Positions 6,498 through 48,140 of a DNA stretch of 64,000 nt are shown one piece after another. The notes beneath the pieces are model-generated. The model did not search any database and was not told the DNA's origin. It worked only from the letters and a program-made list of their open reading frames with translations. Position numbers and translations under genes: made by a program. The stretch is from contig CP092875.1 of assembly GCA_030710605.1 (NCBI GenBank), positions 66,330,216 through 66,394,215 of the forward strand. Direction: 5' to 3'. The stretch's first letter is position 1, and each line of letters opens with the position of its first letter. Source of the DNA: Cordylochernes scorpioides (taxonomy: Eukaryota; Arthropoda; Arachnida; Pseudoscorpiones; Chernetidae).

Positions 6498-6568
6498 GCA
6501 TCGGTGGTTCAGTGGTAGAATGCTCGCCGGCCACGCGGGCGGCCAGGGTTCGATTCCCGGCCGATGCA
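6498..6568 (+). tRNA. tRNA-Gly(GCC)-like gene, probably a pseudogene
   Basis: A 71-nt cloverleaf with intact 7-bp acceptor stem (GCATCGG/CCGATGC), A box GTGGTTCAGTGG, B box GGTTCGATTCC and a T8 Pol III terminator directly after. Anticodon GCC. Two flaws: base 33 is G instead of the near-invariant T, and the T stem has an A-G mismatch (CAGGG/CCCGG). Its 3' flank is shared with the copy at 23887, so it is a repeated unit. Confidence 0.75.
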
Positions 6569-7373: not shown

Positions 7374-7660
7374 ACTATTAAATTATTTGGATTAGGTCTT
7401 ATTTACTTTTATTATAATCTATAATCCAAATTGTGATTTATCATTACCAGCAATATGTTTATTTTCAATAATATCATCAAATATTATCTCTACAGACCTT
7501 ACTGCAATGATATAAGTTATTGAATGAGAGATGAGCCAAGCCCTCTCATTCAATAACTTATATCATTGCAGTAAGGTCTGTATAGATAACATTCGATGAT
7601 ATTATTGAAAATAAACATATTGCCAGTAAATTATTTGTCACAAATAAACGTTTATAAAAA
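7374..7660. repeat. foldback element (family F), copy 1
   Basis: Arms 7449-7530 and 7543-7624 are reverse complements around the 12-nt loop ATGAGCCAAGCC. The outer part ('cactattaaattatttgga') matches the F elements at 11071-11672 and 22411-22560. No coding capacity. Confidence 0.8.
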
Positions 7661-8183
7661 GAAATAAAGGCATCTCATCGTGCAACTAAAAGTTTTGATG
7701 GCTTGCGCCATCTATCGGAATAAATATCAACTAATCGTTAATTGTAAAATGTAGATAATCTACCGTCCATTGAATACCAACAGTGAGATCGGCGATGTGT
7801 GAGGAGAAAAGGACGCTGACACCAATGCTAACACTCGTCCAATTTTTGCCATTTCTATTTGTTTGACATTCCTATTTACATATATTTCACAAGAGTGATG
7901 CAAAATATTCACTTTTCACATTTTATAGCCCCTACAGCAGTTTTATTTTGTCCAGTAATACTTTGTTCATTCTGAGGCTCAAACTTCCATTTGACTTTAG
8001 CACTCCCTATTTACTAATTATCTTTGAGATATCACTTTGTTATGATCCGTTTAATTATTATTTTTGGAAATATTGTAGTTAGTATTTATTAAGAAATATG
8101 TAAAAAGGAATCATCATTATGTCTCAGTATTAGATATAAATGAATATATGGGGGGCGTAATCTGTTTATTACAATTGAAACAA
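7661..8183. other. 312-bp-repeat fragment and spacer
   Basis: 7665-7745 is an inverted single copy of part of the 2580-3815 repeat. From 7746 to 8183 I see no gene or repeat. Confidence 0.5.
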
Positions 8184-8403
8184 CACTCATGGACAAAACT
8201 TGAAGTTGTACCTTTTAGCATGTATATCGGGATTCAGACAATAATTCTGAAAGATATTACAGTGAACTTTATTGAAGACACACGAGATAACCAAGTGTGA
8301 AAAAAATTGCCTCCGTCTCCTTAAAAAAAAAAAATAATAAATAAAAAATAGACCACTGGCGACATAAAAGTCTTTCCACTTCTTTAAGATTTGTCCATGA
8401 GTG
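8184..8403. mobile_element. short TIR element (CACTCATGGACAAAACTT ends)
   Basis: Left terminus CACTCATGGACAAAACTT is mirrored at the right by a close reverse complement ending CCATGAGTG. 220 bp, non-coding, so a MITE. The termini look like those of Tc1-type transposons (inference). Related copies: 25877-26100, halves at 20215-20300 and 22745-22830, and the start of the satellite at 58178. Confidence 0.7.
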
Positions 8404-8949: not shown

Positions 8950-9300
8950 CACTTAATACCATTATATATTATTATTACAAAAGCGTTATTTATCAAAAAT
9001 TATATATTCTAAATTAAGAAGTAAAGAACATAAACAACAATCTATTTCTCCCGTGTACACCAATATTAAAAAAAAAAAAAGCCCGGTATGAAAAGAACAT
9101 AAATTGAACAAGGTTAATTTATACGTGTTCTTTTATCAATTAAAATTTATTTCTTCGCTTAAAAAAAAAAAAAAATTCCCACGCCGGGAATCGAACCCGG
9201 GCCTTCTGGGTGAAAGCCAGATATCCTAGCCACTAGACCACGTGGGAGTACGTCCTTTTGATCGTTATTTCTCTCTTTTATCAACAATACATAGGTTGAT
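8950..9300 (-). repeat. tRNA-Glu repeat unit, copy 1
   Basis: The tRNA-Glu gene at 9176-9247 lies within a longer unit whose two flanks recur at 11836-12029 plus 16329-16560, and at 21430-21740. Shared text includes 'taaagaacataaacaacaat' and 'accaatattaaaaaa' upstream (plus-strand view) and 'ctcttttatcaacaat' beyond the gene. The unit, not just the tRNA, has been duplicated. Confidence 0.75.
9176..9247 (-). tRNA. tRNA-Glu (anticodon TTC)
   Basis: A complete 72-nt cloverleaf: acceptor TCCCACG/CGTGGGA plus discriminator A, D arm GGTCTAGTGGCTAGGATA, anticodon loop CTTTCAC, and T arm CCCGGGTTCGATTCCCGG. A long T run (plus-strand A14) follows at once and serves as Pol III terminator. CCA is not encoded, as expected in eukaryotes. 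The two other copies (16395, 21580) appear identical over the gene. Confidence 0.96.
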
Positions 9301-16394: not shown

Positions 16395-16466
16395 TTCCCA
16401 CGCCGGGAATCGAACCCGGGCCTTCTGGGTGAAAGCCAGATATCCTAGCCACTAGACCACGTGGGA
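16395..16466 (-). tRNA. tRNA-Glu (anticodon TTC), copy 2
   Basis: Same 72-nt gene as at 9176, with TTC anticodon, intact stems and T-run terminator (plus-strand A11). It lies 66 bases outside the Gypsy 5' LTR, so the retrotransposon cut the repeat unit but left the tRNA intact. Confidence 0.96.
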
Positions 16467-21579: not shown

Positions 21580-21651
21580 TTCCCACGCCGGGAATCGAAC
21601 CCGGGCCTTCTGGGTGAAAGCCAGATATCCTAGCCACTAGACCACGTGGGA
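21580..21651 (-). tRNA. tRNA-Glu (anticodon TTC), copy 3
   Basis: Same gene as at 9176 and 16395, with full stems, TTC anticodon and a long T-run terminator (plus-strand A17). Confidence 0.96.
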
Positions 21652-29316: not shown

Positions 29317-29396
29317 CATGAAAAATAGACACTTCGGCCAGTTAGAGTTTTTTAAGTAAAAAAAACTCTAACTGGCCGAAGTGTCTATTTTTCATG
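29317..29396. repeat. 80-bp palindrome from a PLE terminus
   Basis: Arms of ~37 bp (CATGAAAAATAGACACTTCG and on) around a short A/T loop, then 'atgaatgccggccaggcagc'. The TTCGGCCAG and CCGGCCAGGCA parts are shared with the PLE termini at 34445 and 47085. Confidence 0.8.
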
Positions 29397-29429
29397 GAAA
29401 TATGAATGCCGGCCAGGCAGCCTATATCT

Positions 29430-30640
29430 TCAGGATTTATTCCTGTGCGATTTCAAATAATATTAAATATAAAAGCATTTTTTTTAAATAGACTAGAAAA
29501 CACATTAACCCGTTCGACGAGCGGGTGCAGAATAACATCCAGTTCTAAGCCTTACTAAAGATTTTACCATATTAAAGCTAAAAATAAGGTAAGTGAGAGA
29601 TAATAGATGTTTAACCCTTTCCTAAAATATAAATAAATGGGAAATAATGATTATCACAAGATATAATATTCTATATAGTTCTGTTATCTATTATATATTC
29701 ATTTATATGATGACATCAGCCATCATACACCCTAAGCCATATAAAAGTGTTTTTATATAATTTGACTATTTCAGCATTTTCAACTTGCTCACTCACGATG
29801 ATAATTCATTTATTTAGAAAATATTTCAATTGGGTCATATTTGAAATAATAGAACCATAACCCATTTGAATATAAAATATGTATAATTACTTAATGTGGA
29901 TCAGAACTTATTTTAAATCAATAAAAACTGAAATTTTAAAAACTTGTAAATATTTATTATAGATATAGATGACATATAATGGAATTATAATATATGTATG
30001 ATGGTATATTAGAAGAATATATGTTACTTAATTATAGCAAATGAATATTTATCTTGAATTTTGCCAGTTTTGCTTGTAATTTCTGGAGTTTGAGTTAGAA
30101 ACCTGGATTTTTGAATACTTTCCTTCTTTAAGGTAATGAACAATCGTTGAAAAAATAGAGTATCAACTTCCAGTAGTTTCGAATGCATCACAGCCGGACA
30201 GACAGACATCGTATTCAGATGATTATAATTAATAAGGTGTAATTTGGTTATACCTTTAATTAGATATAAAATTTTGTGTGGTTGTTTAAAATTTAATTAC
30301 ACATATCAAATTATCTTTAATAAAGAAAATATGTCATGGCTTATTAAAACGTCATAGAAACTTTATTTCTATATAAAATTTAAGTTCTACCAGTTTATGT
30401 GAGGGCAAAGAGAATTTCCTGGCGATGATAATCATATCATTATGATAATAGTGATAATATGCTAACGATTTTATAATATGGATGAATTTTTAGATTATAA
30501 ATACGTATTTGATCAAATATTTATTCGACAAAACTCCAGGCTAAGCCGGACCATTAATGTATAGAGTATAAATATAATAAAATAAAACAATAAAAACGAT
30601 AATGATGATACCTTTCATATTAATGATGAAAGTAAATATA
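29430..30640. other. no gene seen
   Basis: AT-rich with scattered stops. The 61-codon minus frame at 30024-30209 has no recognisable domain. Confidence 0.4.
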
Positions 30641-32220: not shown

Positions 32221-32982
32221 ATATTGAATTATATCATATTGTATGAAAAACGCGTTTCGCGCTGTTGGCGCTCGTCAGCGTGGAGTAGGCTGTACCACTG
32301 CGACCAAATTTCTTGATTTATCAAGCTAAATATCAGGGAACAGGCAATCAATGTTTAGTTGATTTCTGTTCCACCAGATGGCGCTCTGCCTTCTGAAAAG
32401 CACATGTGCTCCTGGTCAGGATATGCCTTTTTTATTTTTATTATATTGTATTTTATGAAAGAGGAAAACATATTTTCGCTAATGGTTAACCTCCTTCCAT
32501 CATTCTACACTTGTATTACTATGTGTATATTAGAAATTAACAATTCAATTTATGATGTTTTGATGGAGAGCTATCAAATATTTATGGAAGCTAAATATTG
32601 ACCTGCTTATCTGATGGCAACAAGATCAATTTAAAATGTTCGGTGTTGCCAGGAATGAAGTCTTCTGCCAATATTTGCGGTCAGTGTACCAATCAACTCC
32701 TTGGCCGTGACGGACGTCTTTACTTACTTAAGTGTTAGGTATTGGAGAGCCATCTGTATTCACGAGTTAACTCGTAGAATCAACTGTGTGATAAACTAGG
32801 TATCTCTTTAGTAAGCTATACTCTACTATCAGCAAAGTTTCCATGTATCATCACAATATGTTATTTTATTCTATTTACACAATGATTTTAAATATTTTGA
32901 ATATAAAATAGACGTTATTGTTAATTTTCAAAATATTCAACCTATATTTTACAAAATTTATTTTGTCCATAATATAAATATA
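32221..32982. other. no gene seen
   Basis: Contains 'tgttggcgctcgtcagcgtg' near 32262, a relic of the 312-bp repeat. The 80-codon frame 32359-32601 has no motif. Confidence 0.4.
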
Positions 32983-34375: not shown

Positions 34376-34540
34376 CCACTTGTATATATATCTCCCTCTC
34401 TCTTTTTGAAGAATAAACTAATATCTTCTAAAGATTACACTGAAGATAGAGGTTGCCTAGCCCTATTCATAGTTCTAATAAGAGCCACTTCGGCAATAAA
34501 AGGATTTAATTTCCTCGACGTTTCGACAAAAATCTTTTGT

Positions 34541-34910
34541 TTTTAGATAATAAATCTCATCCAGTAAAGATATTCATCCTTAGACGTTTAATTTATTATC
34601 TAAAATTGCTAGCAAAGGATTATACACCTATCCCCCGATTTACACGGTACTTTTTTTACACGTTTTCGCTTTTACACGGTTTTCCAAATAAGTTTTTTTT
34701 GTTTTGTTTTTATCGCACTATACTAAATGCTACTGTGATTGAACACATGCGCTGTGTACACATCTCACGAGGAATCCCGAACTTATGTGCTGACTATATA
34801 TTTTAACCTGTCAATGCATTTTATTTTTATTTCTGTGTACACCTATCTCCCGATTTACACGTTTTTCAGGAACATATCTACCGTGTAAATCGGGGGATAG
34901 GTGTATTCTA
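34541..34910. mobile_element. insertion inside hammerhead-like stem II
   Basis: Flanked by AAAAATCTTTTGT (34528-34540 and 34911-34923). It starts with a small palindrome (TTTTAGATAATAAAT/ATTTATTATCTAAAA) and includes the TIR element at 34623-34905. Confidence 0.75.
34623..34905. mobile_element. TACACCTATCCCCCGATTT MITE, copy 1
   Basis: TIRs TACACCTATCCCCCGATTTA and the reverse complement at the right end; an extra inverted copy of the end lies just inside (34837-34905). Non-coding. Second copy at 47231-47508. Pogo/Tigger-like by appearance. Confidence 0.85.
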
Positions 34911-35153
34911 AAAAATCTTTTGTCTTCATCAGGAAAAATAAAAAAATTAAGAATTTAACATGGCATTATAAAGAGATACAGTTATAACGCCTTGCTAAAG
35001 GCTTTAATTTTATTTTTTATTAACGAGGACAAAAGATTTTTATCGAAACGTTGAGAAAATGAAATCGTTTTATGGCCGAGGTATCTTTTAATCTTTAAGA
35101 ATCTTCAAGAGTATTTGAATAATTTAAAAATAAATAATTATATATTATTGCAC

Positions 35154-44410: not shown

Positions 44411-45247
44411 ATGTACATGAATATTATTCTCTATTAAAATTATAAATTTTCATCTGTGAAATTAATTAATTCCTAAATTTAGTGAAAAAAATCATTAATC
44501 TTCTGAATTGAATTAAGGTACAAAGACATATACTGTTCTCTAGGGAATAGTTGTTTTCGACAACTCATCATTAAGGCTAAATCTTTCGGGCTTATATGCC
44601 CTTTTATATATAGTTGAAGAAGATAAAACTGTTTACACCTAATTGATAAAAACTTTCATTACATAGATTCTGTCGAAATTAGTTAACCAAATTTGCTTGT
44701 TTGACAATACAAATAGTAATACTGGGACGTTACAAAGACCATCTGCATGGCCCCTGGATGGTGCAGAAATGGGTCATCAGATTTAAAAAATGCTCCCCCA
44801 CGATGTCAGGGAGCTATCCTCACCTAATCCCCGATAGGAAGATAAAAAAAGAGGTGTAAACCAGAATGAGGGTGTCGTCTGGCTGTAAATAAGATCGACG
44901 TGGTATCAAAATAGATGGGACCAGTTTGATCTGGTTCTTGATGTAGACCATTATCTCTGCACAATTTCCTCACTATAGGTTTTCCTTTTGGTTTTCTACG
45001 GAAATTTTGGATGCACATGCTAAGCTGTCTTCTTATGATATGTGTACACTAATTCAAAAGCTAATCCCCAGTACTCTTTAGCGTTAAAACAAGAAGACTT
45101 GAGGAAGTGTTCGTTTTACTTAAATCTCATAAGTTACAATCTTTTGGAAATGTCTACTTGCTTCATTCAGAAGCAACTGTTGAAGGAGAAACATGTCAGA
45201 AAGTTTGTGATATAAATGTGAATATAAGAGACACACTCTTCCCTATG
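44411..45247. other. no gene recognised
   Basis: Minus frame 44824-45018 (CRDNGLHQEPDQTGPIYFDT) is GC-richer but unidentified. Plus frame 45107-45382 runs into the PLE repeat. Confidence 0.35.
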
Positions 45248-45303
45248 TTAAAACAGCAAGTAGGTAAACAGCGTGGTAAGTTTCTTTATTGGGAACTACG
45301 AGC

Positions 45304-45330
45304 TTTCGGACATCAGCTGCCCTTCATCAG
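45304..45330 (-). ncRNA. hammerhead-like core in left PLE repeat
   Basis: Minus strand CTGATGA (45330-45324), AGGGC-AGCTGAT-GTCC stem II, GAAAGC. Identical to the right copy. Confidence 0.5.
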
Positions 45331-45601
45331 GTACAATGGGTGGTTGGAAAAAGTGAACCAATATATATATGCAGTAAATTAGCATAAGAGAAAGCTAACT
45401 AACATCTATTTAAAATAATTAAGAAATTTACATAGGAACTAAAGATAAAAGTACGAAATTTCTAAAAAATACGAAATTTCTAAAAAATAGACTAAAAATC
45501 TGTATATGACGGATAAAAGGTAAAACACGAGAAAAAAGGATGGGAAGACAAGAAAAGCGTAGGCATCTAGGCACAATGAAGGAAGGAAGCGAAATAAGAT
45601 G

Positions 45602-46489
45602 TCAGTGGCCAAGTTTAGAAAAAGCAGTATATTGAGGGGGGAGATCTATTTTTCTATTAAAACTAGGGATGGAGTTGGACACGAGAGCCTCCAGGACCAA
45701 ACGTTGATATTTATTCTTAACTTCACTGTATACCGGAATCGTGTTGCGTAGATTAAAAGAGTGGTTAAATTCGTGGCTGTGTTGATATAGTAGTGACTTA
45801 CGATCATGGGAACGGATGTTACGTTCGTGTTCTAGGACACGAGTGGCAATGGTGCGGCCAGTTTCTCCGACGTATGATTGTGGACAGTCGTTGCACGGTA
45901 TTCTGTAGATGGCATTGGAGGAAGATTGGGGGCTGGGCCTGACGGAGCTTTTTTGTGAGGGGATGGCGTAACGATGTGCCTAGGGAAGGTGATTTTTTAA
46001 AAAACGTGCGGATGCCAAATTTACGCAGATAAAAACCGATGTCGGAATTCGTAGTAGAAAACGGAAGAACGCAAACATCTTTAAACGGGGGAGGAATAGA
46101 ACTGTCGTGGTTTGGTGAATAAAAATGTCGATCGATAAAGTTACGTGGGTAACCCGCGGATAAAAGGTGTAGGTAAACGATCCGTTTTTCGATTCTACTG
46201 AATAAAGGAAGGGAGCAATGAGTAAAAACGCGCTTAGAAAGAGTTTTTAACGGTGGTAATTTTATGGGAGACGGGAGCATGTGATGAAAAATGCAAGTAA
46301 GAAGGGGTAAAACCAGCTTTACGAAAAACAGTTGTATGGAAACGACCCTGGAGGTTAACCACTAAAACGTCTAAGAACGGGATACAATTAAAACGGGAAG
46401 AATTGTGGGTAAAACGTAAATCGGAATGATAGGAGTTTAAAACAGTCAGGATAGGGGAGTGGTCAGTGCTCTGATGCAGACAATTTACT
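45602..46489 (-). pseudogene. PLE reverse transcriptase C-terminus and GIY-YIG endonuclease
   Basis: Read in three minus-strand frames. First: SPILTVLNSYHSDLRF and IPFLDVLVVN, then TTVFRKAGFTPSYLHF, the conserved end of PLE RT. Second, after an extra A near 46250: KRVFTHCSLPLFSRIEKRI. Third, after a shift in an A6 run near 45950: YRIPCNDCPQSYVGETGRTI and RVLEHERNIRSHD, the GIY-YIG endonuclease core (Y..YVGETGR), ending with a stop at 45604-45602. The family integrates with this endonuclease. This copy is dead. Confidence 0.9.
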
Positions 46490-46531
46490 GCATATATATA
46501 TTGGTTCACTTTTTCCAACCACCCATTGTAC

Positions 46532-46562
46532 CTGATGAAGGGCAGCTGATGTCCGAAAGCTC
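46532..46562 (+). ncRNA. hammerhead-like core in right PLE repeat
   Basis: CTGATGA (46532-46538), stem II GGGC/GTCC, GAAA (46555-46558). Penelope-like elements are known to carry hammerhead ribozymes; activity here is not shown. Confidence 0.5.
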
Positions 46563-46739
46563 GTAGTTCCCAATAAAGAAACTTACCACGCTGTTTACCT
46601 ACTTGCTGTTTTAATATATTGAGCGTGGCTATATTATGTCTTCCCTATGTCTTCACGTTTTAACGTCATATGATGTGCACATTACATGCGCCATCGCTCT
46701 ACGTTTCCATTATTATCATTATTTTTTTTAACATGGTCC

Positions 46740-46925
46740 CTGTGATATACACACAAAGCTTTATTAAGACCAGCGGTCTTATACAGATTCACCATAGGAA
46801 GAAATAATAGATAGAGCTCCTATACTCCAGGCAGCTCAGCACCCAACAACAGCCTCCAGGCCCGACGTATGTCCAATGGCCACACGTTCCTTCGTGCATA
46901 AGTCATGGTTAGCGACCTTTCGTTT
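46740..46925 (-). mobile_element. LINE 3' tail, TTTGTGTG family, copy 2
   Basis: Same as 31138-31320: hairpin AAGACCGCTGGTCTT before AATAAAGC. Confidence 0.7.
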
Positions 46926-47084
46926 ATTATAACATCTGGTGTGATACCAGATTCTGTGGATAGTGATCTAAGTTTTTAATTCAGACCAGCCAAACACACT
47001 GTAGACAACAATGACATAAAAATCTACATCCTTACTTATTTTATTAAGGCCTAACATGTCTTGGTTTTCGTAAAGATAGAGGTT
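46926..47084. other. spacer
   Basis: Nothing recognised. Confidence 0.3.
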
Positions 47085-47230
47085 GCCTGGCCGGCATTCA
47101 TAGTTATTCAAATTAAAGATACTTCGGCCAGTAAATCTTTTTATTGTCTCGACGTTTTGACAAAATTTTTTTGTCTTCGTCAGGAGCAAACAAAAATAAA
47201 AAAATTATGAAGCGTTGAAACAATTAAAAA

Positions 47231-47508
47231 TACACCTAACCCCCGATTTACACGGTACTTGTTTTACACGTTTTCGCTCTTACACGGTTTTCCAAATAAG
47301 TTTTTTTTTGTTTTATCGCACTATACTAAATGCTACTGTGATTGAACACATGCGCTATGTACACATCTCACGAGGAATCCCGAGCGTATGTGCTGACTAC
47401 ATATTTTAACCTGTCAATGCATTTTATTCTTATTTCTGTGTACACCTATCCCCCGATTTACACGTTTTTCTCAGGAACGTATCTACCGTGTAAATCGGGA
47501 TAGGTGTA
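47231..47508. mobile_element. TACACCTATCCCCCGATTT MITE, copy 2
   Basis: TIRs TACACCTAACCCCCGATTTA and reverse complement; ~90% identical to 34623-34905. Confidence 0.85.
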
Positions 47509-47551
47509 ATTGTTAATGTTTTTTCAAATGTGTTTCAATTTTTGTTCGCTC

Positions 47552-47583
47552 CTGATGAGGACAAAAGATTTTTGTCGAAACGT
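47552..47583 (+). ncRNA. hammerhead-like core, best preserved
   Basis: CTGATGA (47552-47558), G, stem II GACAAAA-GAT-TTTTGTC, then GAAACGTC. All invariant core bases and a GUC cleavage triplet are present. Stem I and III partners were not worked out. Confidence 0.6.
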
Positions 47584-47645
47584 CGAGACAATAAAAAAGA
47601 TTTACTGGCCGAAGTATCTTTAATTTGAAGAACTATGTCTTGGTT

Positions 47646-47904
47646 TCTTAGGTTGATCCTGTGAAGGTAGATTATTAAAAAGAAACGCATTGCCTTTAAA
47701 ATTTTAATTTTTACAAATTTTATCGATAAATGGCAATTGAATTTATGAATATTATCATTAGATAGTATAATGAAATTCATATCACATCAATATTACTAAG
47801 ATTTTTATTTATAATTTTCTCTATGATATTCTAACAAAGTTTCCTCTCTAAATATTTGCTACGCCATAGATAAAAGGAATAGTATAGGCTAGGTAAAAAT
47901 CACA
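47646..47904. other. AT-rich spacer
   Basis: 47700-47760 resembles 11228-11265 (family F flank). No gene. Confidence 0.4.
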
Positions 47905-48140
47905 TACACAAAGCTTTATTAAGACCATCGGTCTTATACATATTCACCACAGGAAGAAATAATAGATGGAGCTCCTATATTCCAGGTAGCGCAGCACCCA
48001 ACAACAGCCTCCAGGTCTGACACATGTCCAGTGGCCACACGTTTATTCGTGCATACGTCATGGTTAGCGAATCACTGAACAGGCTAGTGTGGAATCAGCC
48101 GCGTTCTAGTCTTCGCTTTCCTCGTCCAAAGCTAGGTAAA
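47905..48140 (-). mobile_element. LINE 3' tail, TTTGTGTG family, copy 3
   Basis: As 31138-31380, hairpin AAGACCGATGGTCTT. Confidence 0.7.

Follow-up and report, generated by a model that had tools for sequence, protein, structure and literature searches.

The 64,000 nucleotides of Cordylochernes scorpioides DNA analysed here (part of contig CP092875.1, called the window below) contain two inverted ends of a Penelope-like element (PLE), which lie head to head around a MITE. This arrangement raises two questions: how such a pair comes to be, and whether the hammerhead-like motif in its arms is needed for it. The pair occupies window positions 47068-47637, each end carries a minimal type-I hammerhead-like motif, and the whole lies inside a 9-bp target duplication, TCTTGGTTT, at 47059-47067 and 47638-47646 (12 nt when the ATG preceding the left copy is included). 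The left arm (47068-47220, minus strand) ends in a tail, its outer 31 nt (47068-47098), and the right arm (47507-47637, plus strand) is untailed. The two arms are complementary over 65 nt at 88% and over 44 nt at 98%. In the spacer is the MITE, with inverted ends and TA at both of them (47231-47508). A preliminary description had recognised Penelope termini in head-to-head order, a hammerhead-like core and a MITE in the spacer, all of which were borne out by the sequence and the arm alignments. Comparison of copies leads us to favour, with a probability of roughly 0.7, the joint reading that 47068-47637 is a single insertion of a GIY-YIG PLE family, old and non-coding, and that the pair would be explained by two reverse-transcription starts per insertion, one on each DNA strand.

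The PLE identity of this family (the first family below) rests in part on a longer copy, L040. In this one copy, a GIY-YIG piece at 8070-8198 lies on the strand of the arm, ~0.4 kb upstream of the hammerhead-like core at 7627-7641, and matches Pfam PF01541 (E 1.3e-4) with a score equal to the cut-off. Further upstream is a 70-aa stretch that we take to resemble a PLE thumb and that gave no Pfam match. The outer ends of the arms fall at reference positions 484-500 or 521-528, with one at 507; these two sites, ~34 nt apart, define the tail, and their sharpness is partly by construction because the reference ends at 528. Published PLEs are known with inverted pseudo-LTRs, a single optional tail, target duplications of 8-10 bp and minimal hammerheads without helix III. 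Neither in kind nor in anatomy is the window pair new, and it is ordinary for PLEs. The inverted pair had been presented as peculiar to this locus; instead, such pairs are frequent in the family, with 42 in the 58 loci sampled, and belong to PLE anatomy as published for Adineta vaga (PMC3846280).

The history of the locus can be read in part from a paralogue, L010, which lies on contig C13 at a distance of about 52 kb from the window copy. It holds the same pair without the MITE, and its flanks, which are 90-96% alike, indicate a local duplication. Since L010 has an empty site, its spacer aligning to the joined flanks of the MITE, the MITE appears to be a separate, TA-flanked insertion that entered the spacer after the pair had formed. 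At least 40 near-full-length copies of this MITE are present in the genome (40 were scored among 561 candidates). Both full first-family pairs of the window contain it, and among the 42 sampled pairs it lies between the arms only in the window copy (L009) and just outside the pair in L064.

A second PLE family is represented in the window at 45249-46638. Its arms (45244-45380, minus strand, and 46482-46618, plus strand) are 99% complementary and head to head, and a tail continues only from the right arm. Between them is an EN-like reading frame with a match to PF01541 that falls below the cut-off (E 0.0058). The sequence TCTTCCCTATGT is present at 45237-45248 and again at 46639-46650, and in L010 the flanks are joined with a single TCTTCCCTATGT, indicating that the second-family pair entered as a whole in a single insertion, with a 12-bp target duplication, after the local duplication. 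This family looks young, with 41 scored matches in the genome at 98-100% (40 of 835 candidates were scored).

In the assembly (2.62 Gb, 24 contigs), the exact 29-mer TTTTTGTCGAAACGTCGAGACAATAAAAA of the first family occurs 2,665 times, compared to 0 for the reversed-pattern control. One half of our sample consisted of the top matches to the window arm (best-match sample, L009-L038), and the other of the 30 exact 29-mers that come first on contig C1 (pattern sample, L048-L077). L001-L008 are without the first family, and L039-L047 are longer re-reads of nine loci. Removal of L010 and of L066, which is the same place as L065, from these 60 loci left 58 for analysis. They yielded 42 head-to-head pairs and 20 arms with no detected partner, with a pair count that omits pieces whose match stops before reference 470 (e.g., an inverted piece in L014). 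Neighbouring arms lay within 1.2 kb of each other in 45 cases, of which 42 were head to head, 2 tail to tail and 1 direct; the tail-to-tail adjacencies fall between neighbouring pairs (L011, L076) and the direct one is L035. We inspected 17 of the 20 partnerless arms, omitting short fragments in L035 and L071 as well as L038, whose partner is seen in L040. Very short partners of the opposite kind appear to be hidden in L057, L061, L074 and possibly L048, whereas in L073 and L077 a single arm has a target duplication of its own. A same-strand couple 55 nt apart was also seen outside the sample (C21:3600153/3600208).

The pairs proved to be asymmetric. Exactly one tailed and one untailed arm were present in 40 of 42, compared to ~21 expected by chance with half of the arms tailed. 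On realignment, the outer ends of the two exceptions were 526/490 (the second pair of L076) and 507/493 (L068). A target-duplication score of 7 or more was obtained for 32/42 pairs versus 3.6% of 1,232 re-paired flanks, leaving 10 pairs below 7. At the inner junctions, 18 pairs overlapped, 5 were flush, 16 had 1-31 nt, and 3 had more; because the junctions differ between copies, the pairs must have been made separately. In 20 pairs it was the untailed arm that extended inward by at least 10 nt more than its partner, in 7 it was the tailed arm, and in 15 neither did so; the values for the untailed and tailed arms in the pattern sample were 13/20 and 1/20, respectively. L021 is the extreme case: its tailed arm covers reference 495-528 and its untailed arm 361-497, with only 3 positions in common. 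Thus, in 20 of the 42 pairs each arm holds sequence that the other is without, and in the inserted form neither can have been copied from the other. Copying of one arm from the other may have occurred in the 7 pairs whose tailed arm reaches further and in the 15 where neither does.

The inner ends also bear on the RNA template. Part of the hammerhead was missing from 17/42 tailed and 5/42 untailed arms. Of the 84 inner ends, 28 fell at reference 359-366, which is likely the 5' end of the template upstream of the motif. There was no peak of truncations at the expected cleavage site, with 2/84 inner ends at 441-446. The whole motif was present in 62/84 arms, indicating that the RNA copied there was uncut at the motif.

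Arms of a pair resemble each other more than re-paired arms do. Identity within pairs was 0.893 versus 0.883 after re-pairing (5 of 2000 shuffles), and 8 rare variants were shared, in 7/42 pairs, against a re-paired mean of 1.2 and a largest value of 6 in 1000 re-pairings. At two diagnostic sites, 474 and 480, arm concordance was 0.66 versus 0.43 when re-paired (8 of 2000 shuffles; the 20 pairs of the pattern sample). This sharing above chance suggests that the two cDNAs often came from one source. Four pairs were mixed at both diagnostic sites (L013, L020, L022, L031); all are in the best-match sample and none in the pattern sample, and selection by best match may have inflated their number. 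We had considered that the arms of a pair come from different RNAs and have withdrawn this, as no clearly mixed pair lies outside the best-match sample.

With two starts, the PLE protein would cut both target strands ~9 bp apart, and reverse transcription of PLE RNA would begin at two adjacent sites, each of them used on a different strand. This would yield two 5'-truncated cDNAs, one with the tail and one without it, that are joined head to head; the MITE would enter the spacer later. The second-family pair with its single tail agrees with this reading. The one-tail rule, the differing junctions and the sequence unique to each arm fit two starts and argue against self-priming, the process proposed for Adineta Penelope (PMC3846280), in which one cDNA or antisense template would fold back and be copied into the inverted arm. 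Self-priming predicts head-to-head order, and it accommodates the variants shared above chance (the 8 rare ones and the concordance at 474/480). However, a copy cannot exceed its template, and it is hard to see how copying would leave the tail on one arm only in 40/42 pairs, or an untailed arm with at least 10 nt of inward sequence missing from the tailed arm in 20/42, down to an overlap of 3 positions in L021. The four best-match pairs that differ at both diagnostic sites also count against it. Although a junction deletion after copying could explain the missing sequence, we consider self-priming unlikely. The two-start reading has difficulties of its own: some insertions are one-armed (L073, L077), 10/42 pairs are without a duplication score of 7, the arms of a pair agree at sites 474 and 480 above the re-paired level, half of the sample was picked for its similarity to the window arm, and start-site use in vitro is reported as equal between strands (PMC11167929), which by itself does not predict a rule of one of each.

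A palindromic element of fixed structure that would move as a unit, whether MITE-like or an inverted retrozyme, is much less probable. The abundance of near-symmetric ~260-bp units, their defined outer ends and the target duplications give this appearance, but the inner junctions vary, the ends are asymmetric with a single tail, single arms with target duplications exist, and longer copies carry PLE coding sequence. That the pairs are two independent PLE insertions placed back to back by chance is the least credible of these explanations. It would account for arms that must be separate cDNAs in 20/42 pairs; yet the target duplications enclose pairs, 42/45 close adjacencies are head to head with one tail per pair, and the second-family pair is missing as a whole at an exact empty site in the paralogue. 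Returning to two starts, a more specific version, which we advance only tentatively, is that an asymmetric pair of simultaneous reverse transcriptases makes each PLE insertion: the inner start would run far and give the untailed arm, and the outer start, on the opposite strand, would stop sooner and give the tailed arm, perhaps from one source or one RNA molecule. If so, inverted pseudo-LTRs would be the normal product of integration rather than a by-product, and the ribozyme would not be needed for integration.

The hammerhead-like motif is best preserved in the untailed arm, on the plus strand. The 5' strand of stem I (47539-47551) is followed by the core CTGATGA (47552-47558), an extra G (47559), a 7-bp stem II with a 3-nt loop (47560-47576; GACAAAA at 47560-47566 and TTTTGTC at 47570-47576), GAAACGTC (47577-47584) and the 3' strand of stem I (47585-47597). 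GAAACGTC consists of the core GAAA and a self-complementary ACGT that replaces helix III, with a putative cleavage site after C47584. The CUGANGA and GAAA core and the cleavage triplet GUC are present. CTGATGA, stem II and GAAACGTC, all noted in the preliminary description, are present at 47552-47584; that description omitted the extra G before stem II, and stem I, which it did not describe, does form, pairing at 11/13 facing positions (TTTTTGTT-CG-CTC with GAG-AC-AATAAAAA). The decayed inverted partner that it noted is present in the tailed arm, at about 47151-47184 of the minus strand rather than at 47159-47190, with GAAA changed to AAAA. A register of stem II without the extra G was rejected, as only 2 pairs are left. 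A core without the extra G (CTGATGAGACAAAA) was also rejected: it was found at 37 genome places compared to 23 for the reversed control, and because none of the 8 fetched loci hold the arm, the extra G is a feature of the family.

It had been stated beforehand that failure of Rfam hammerhead models to match together with a lack of cleavage, or stems I and III that cannot form, would count against a hammerhead. No Rfam hammerhead match was obtained at the gathering score in the whole window or at E<=10 in 46400-47700, where 14 weak matches were mostly to miRNA families. Rfam hammerhead models need helix III, which is reportedly absent in minimal PLE hammerheads, so the missing match is weak evidence. 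Stems I and II are able to form; helix III is absent from a single copy of the motif and cannot form within it, but since ACGT is self-complementary, two copies could share a helix. A scan of the window with a pattern of the core, an optional extra base, stem II, GAAA and a self-complementary NNNN returned 3 sites, the motif described above and two of the second PLE family, whose cores have AGCTC; 100 Markov-simulated windows returned 0. When the self-complementary part was dropped, the window gained 1 site, on the minus strand at 32278, and the 100 simulations gave 7; a looser CTGATGA...GAAA pattern occurred at 6 places versus 1.4 expected. The two families share the layout in different letters, each with the extra base before stem II. 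Among 44 of 79 motif copies that were aligned (40 distinct), stems I and II were paired in 97.1% of 720 cells versus 49-69% with slid partners. None of the 18 pairs had changed on both sides in the 40 distinct sequences, and thus there is no support from covariation within the family, whose copies are too alike to give much power.

These observations have to be weighed against the idea that the core is a chance or decayed look-alike, functionless even in the parent element. The missing Rfam match, the extra base, a minimum-energy fold in which part of the core is paired into another helix, the lack of double-sided changes and the amplification of a variant with U4 changed to A (see below) all agree with it. 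Against it, core, stems and a helix-III remnant occur together in two families and in none of 100 simulated windows, and minimal hammerheads, suggested to act as dimers, have been reported in PLEs (PMC7761336, PMC6155905). On balance we find a look-alike somewhat unlikely. The motif belongs to the RNA of the parent element and probably does nothing at the window locus. A single transcript containing a ribozyme and its own antisense, as had been envisaged, is possible, but would arise only by read-through; the 570-nt RNA is predicted to fold as one long hairpin (-228.6 kcal/mol, z -19.2), in which the core would be buried.

A variant of the motif bears on whether the ribozyme is needed for spread. 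U4 is a conserved base of the hammerhead core. A 28-mer spanning stem I and the core occurs 2,648 times in the genome, the same 28-mer with U4 changed 52 times (35 A, 10 C, 7 G), and with one T of stem I changed 38 times (23 C, 8 G, 7 A). The U4-to-A change is present on both members of five couples in minus-then-plus order, each couple on a different contig and with its members 0.7-3.1 kb apart (e.g., C9:4290670-4293756). The excess of A together with these couples indicates an amplified subfamily; the U4-variant list also includes two same-strand couples (C12, C21). Because a change at a conserved base has been amplified, activity of the motif was probably not needed for spread in trans, and from these counts ribozyme activity is probably dispensable for spread of the family. 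In vitro, hammerhead mutants of an Anolis PLE are reported to insert unchanged (PMC11167929).

That PLE, PAc, a Poseidon element of Anolis carolinensis, is described as cutting and extending both strands in vitro and as having two adjacent reverse-transcription starts, the interval between them being the tail (PMC11167929); this agrees with the two starts favoured here. It resembles the first family in its two-site tail and in a pseudo-LTR hammerhead with stems I and II. Its start lies 111-118 bp into the ORF, and the first-family tail ends ~114-117 nt from the ATG of CTGATGA. PAc differs in being tandem and in having an active purified protein, whereas short inverted pairs dominate our sample of the first family. 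Pen2a and its relatives in Adineta vaga share with the first family inverted head-to-head pseudo-LTRs, a 31-bp tail on one of them and target duplications of 8-10 bp, but are described as having few copies, with self-priming proposed (PMC3846280); here there are thousands of copies and evidence against self-priming. The minimal type-I hammerheads of PLEs (Cervera and de la Pena 2014; Lunse 2017; PMC7761336, PMC6155905) are likewise without helix III and within a pseudo-LTR, while both window families have an extra nucleotide between core and stem II.

Metazoan retrozymes, short non-coding repeats with a type-I hammerhead that are possibly moved by PLEs, are also similar, but are described as direct tandem repeats of 150-450 bp (PMC7229834), whereas the first family is direct in 1/45 and head to head in 42/45 close adjacencies. 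We rejected retrozyme identity for this reason, and a TIR DNA transposon or MITE identity of the pairs because their junctions differ and they have no shared internal sequence. The first family addresses questions of PLE integration, frequent pseudo-LTR inversion and the role of the hammerhead. Its short copies number in the thousands, and the many paired insertions among them record both starts, so that two starts and self-priming can be weighed against each other by counting. The one-tail rule and the comparison of arm ranges make it a good test bed for PLE integration, and the amplified U4 variant provides a natural experiment on whether spread requires the ribozyme.

Other features of the window were noted. 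A further first-family pair lies at 34443-35101, with the tailed arm on the left, the untailed arm on the right and the same MITE in its spacer (34623-34905); outside the arms and the MITE, it was not found to resemble the 47-kb copy. At 29360-29436 is a decayed first-family arm that has a tail but no detected partner. On either side of the 47-kb pair is a direct repeat of 165 nt, 91% alike (46751-46915 and 47906-48070). Finally, three minus-strand tRNA-like genes have identical letters in alignments (9176-9247, 16395-16466 and 21580-21651), and two more are present at 6498 and 23887.
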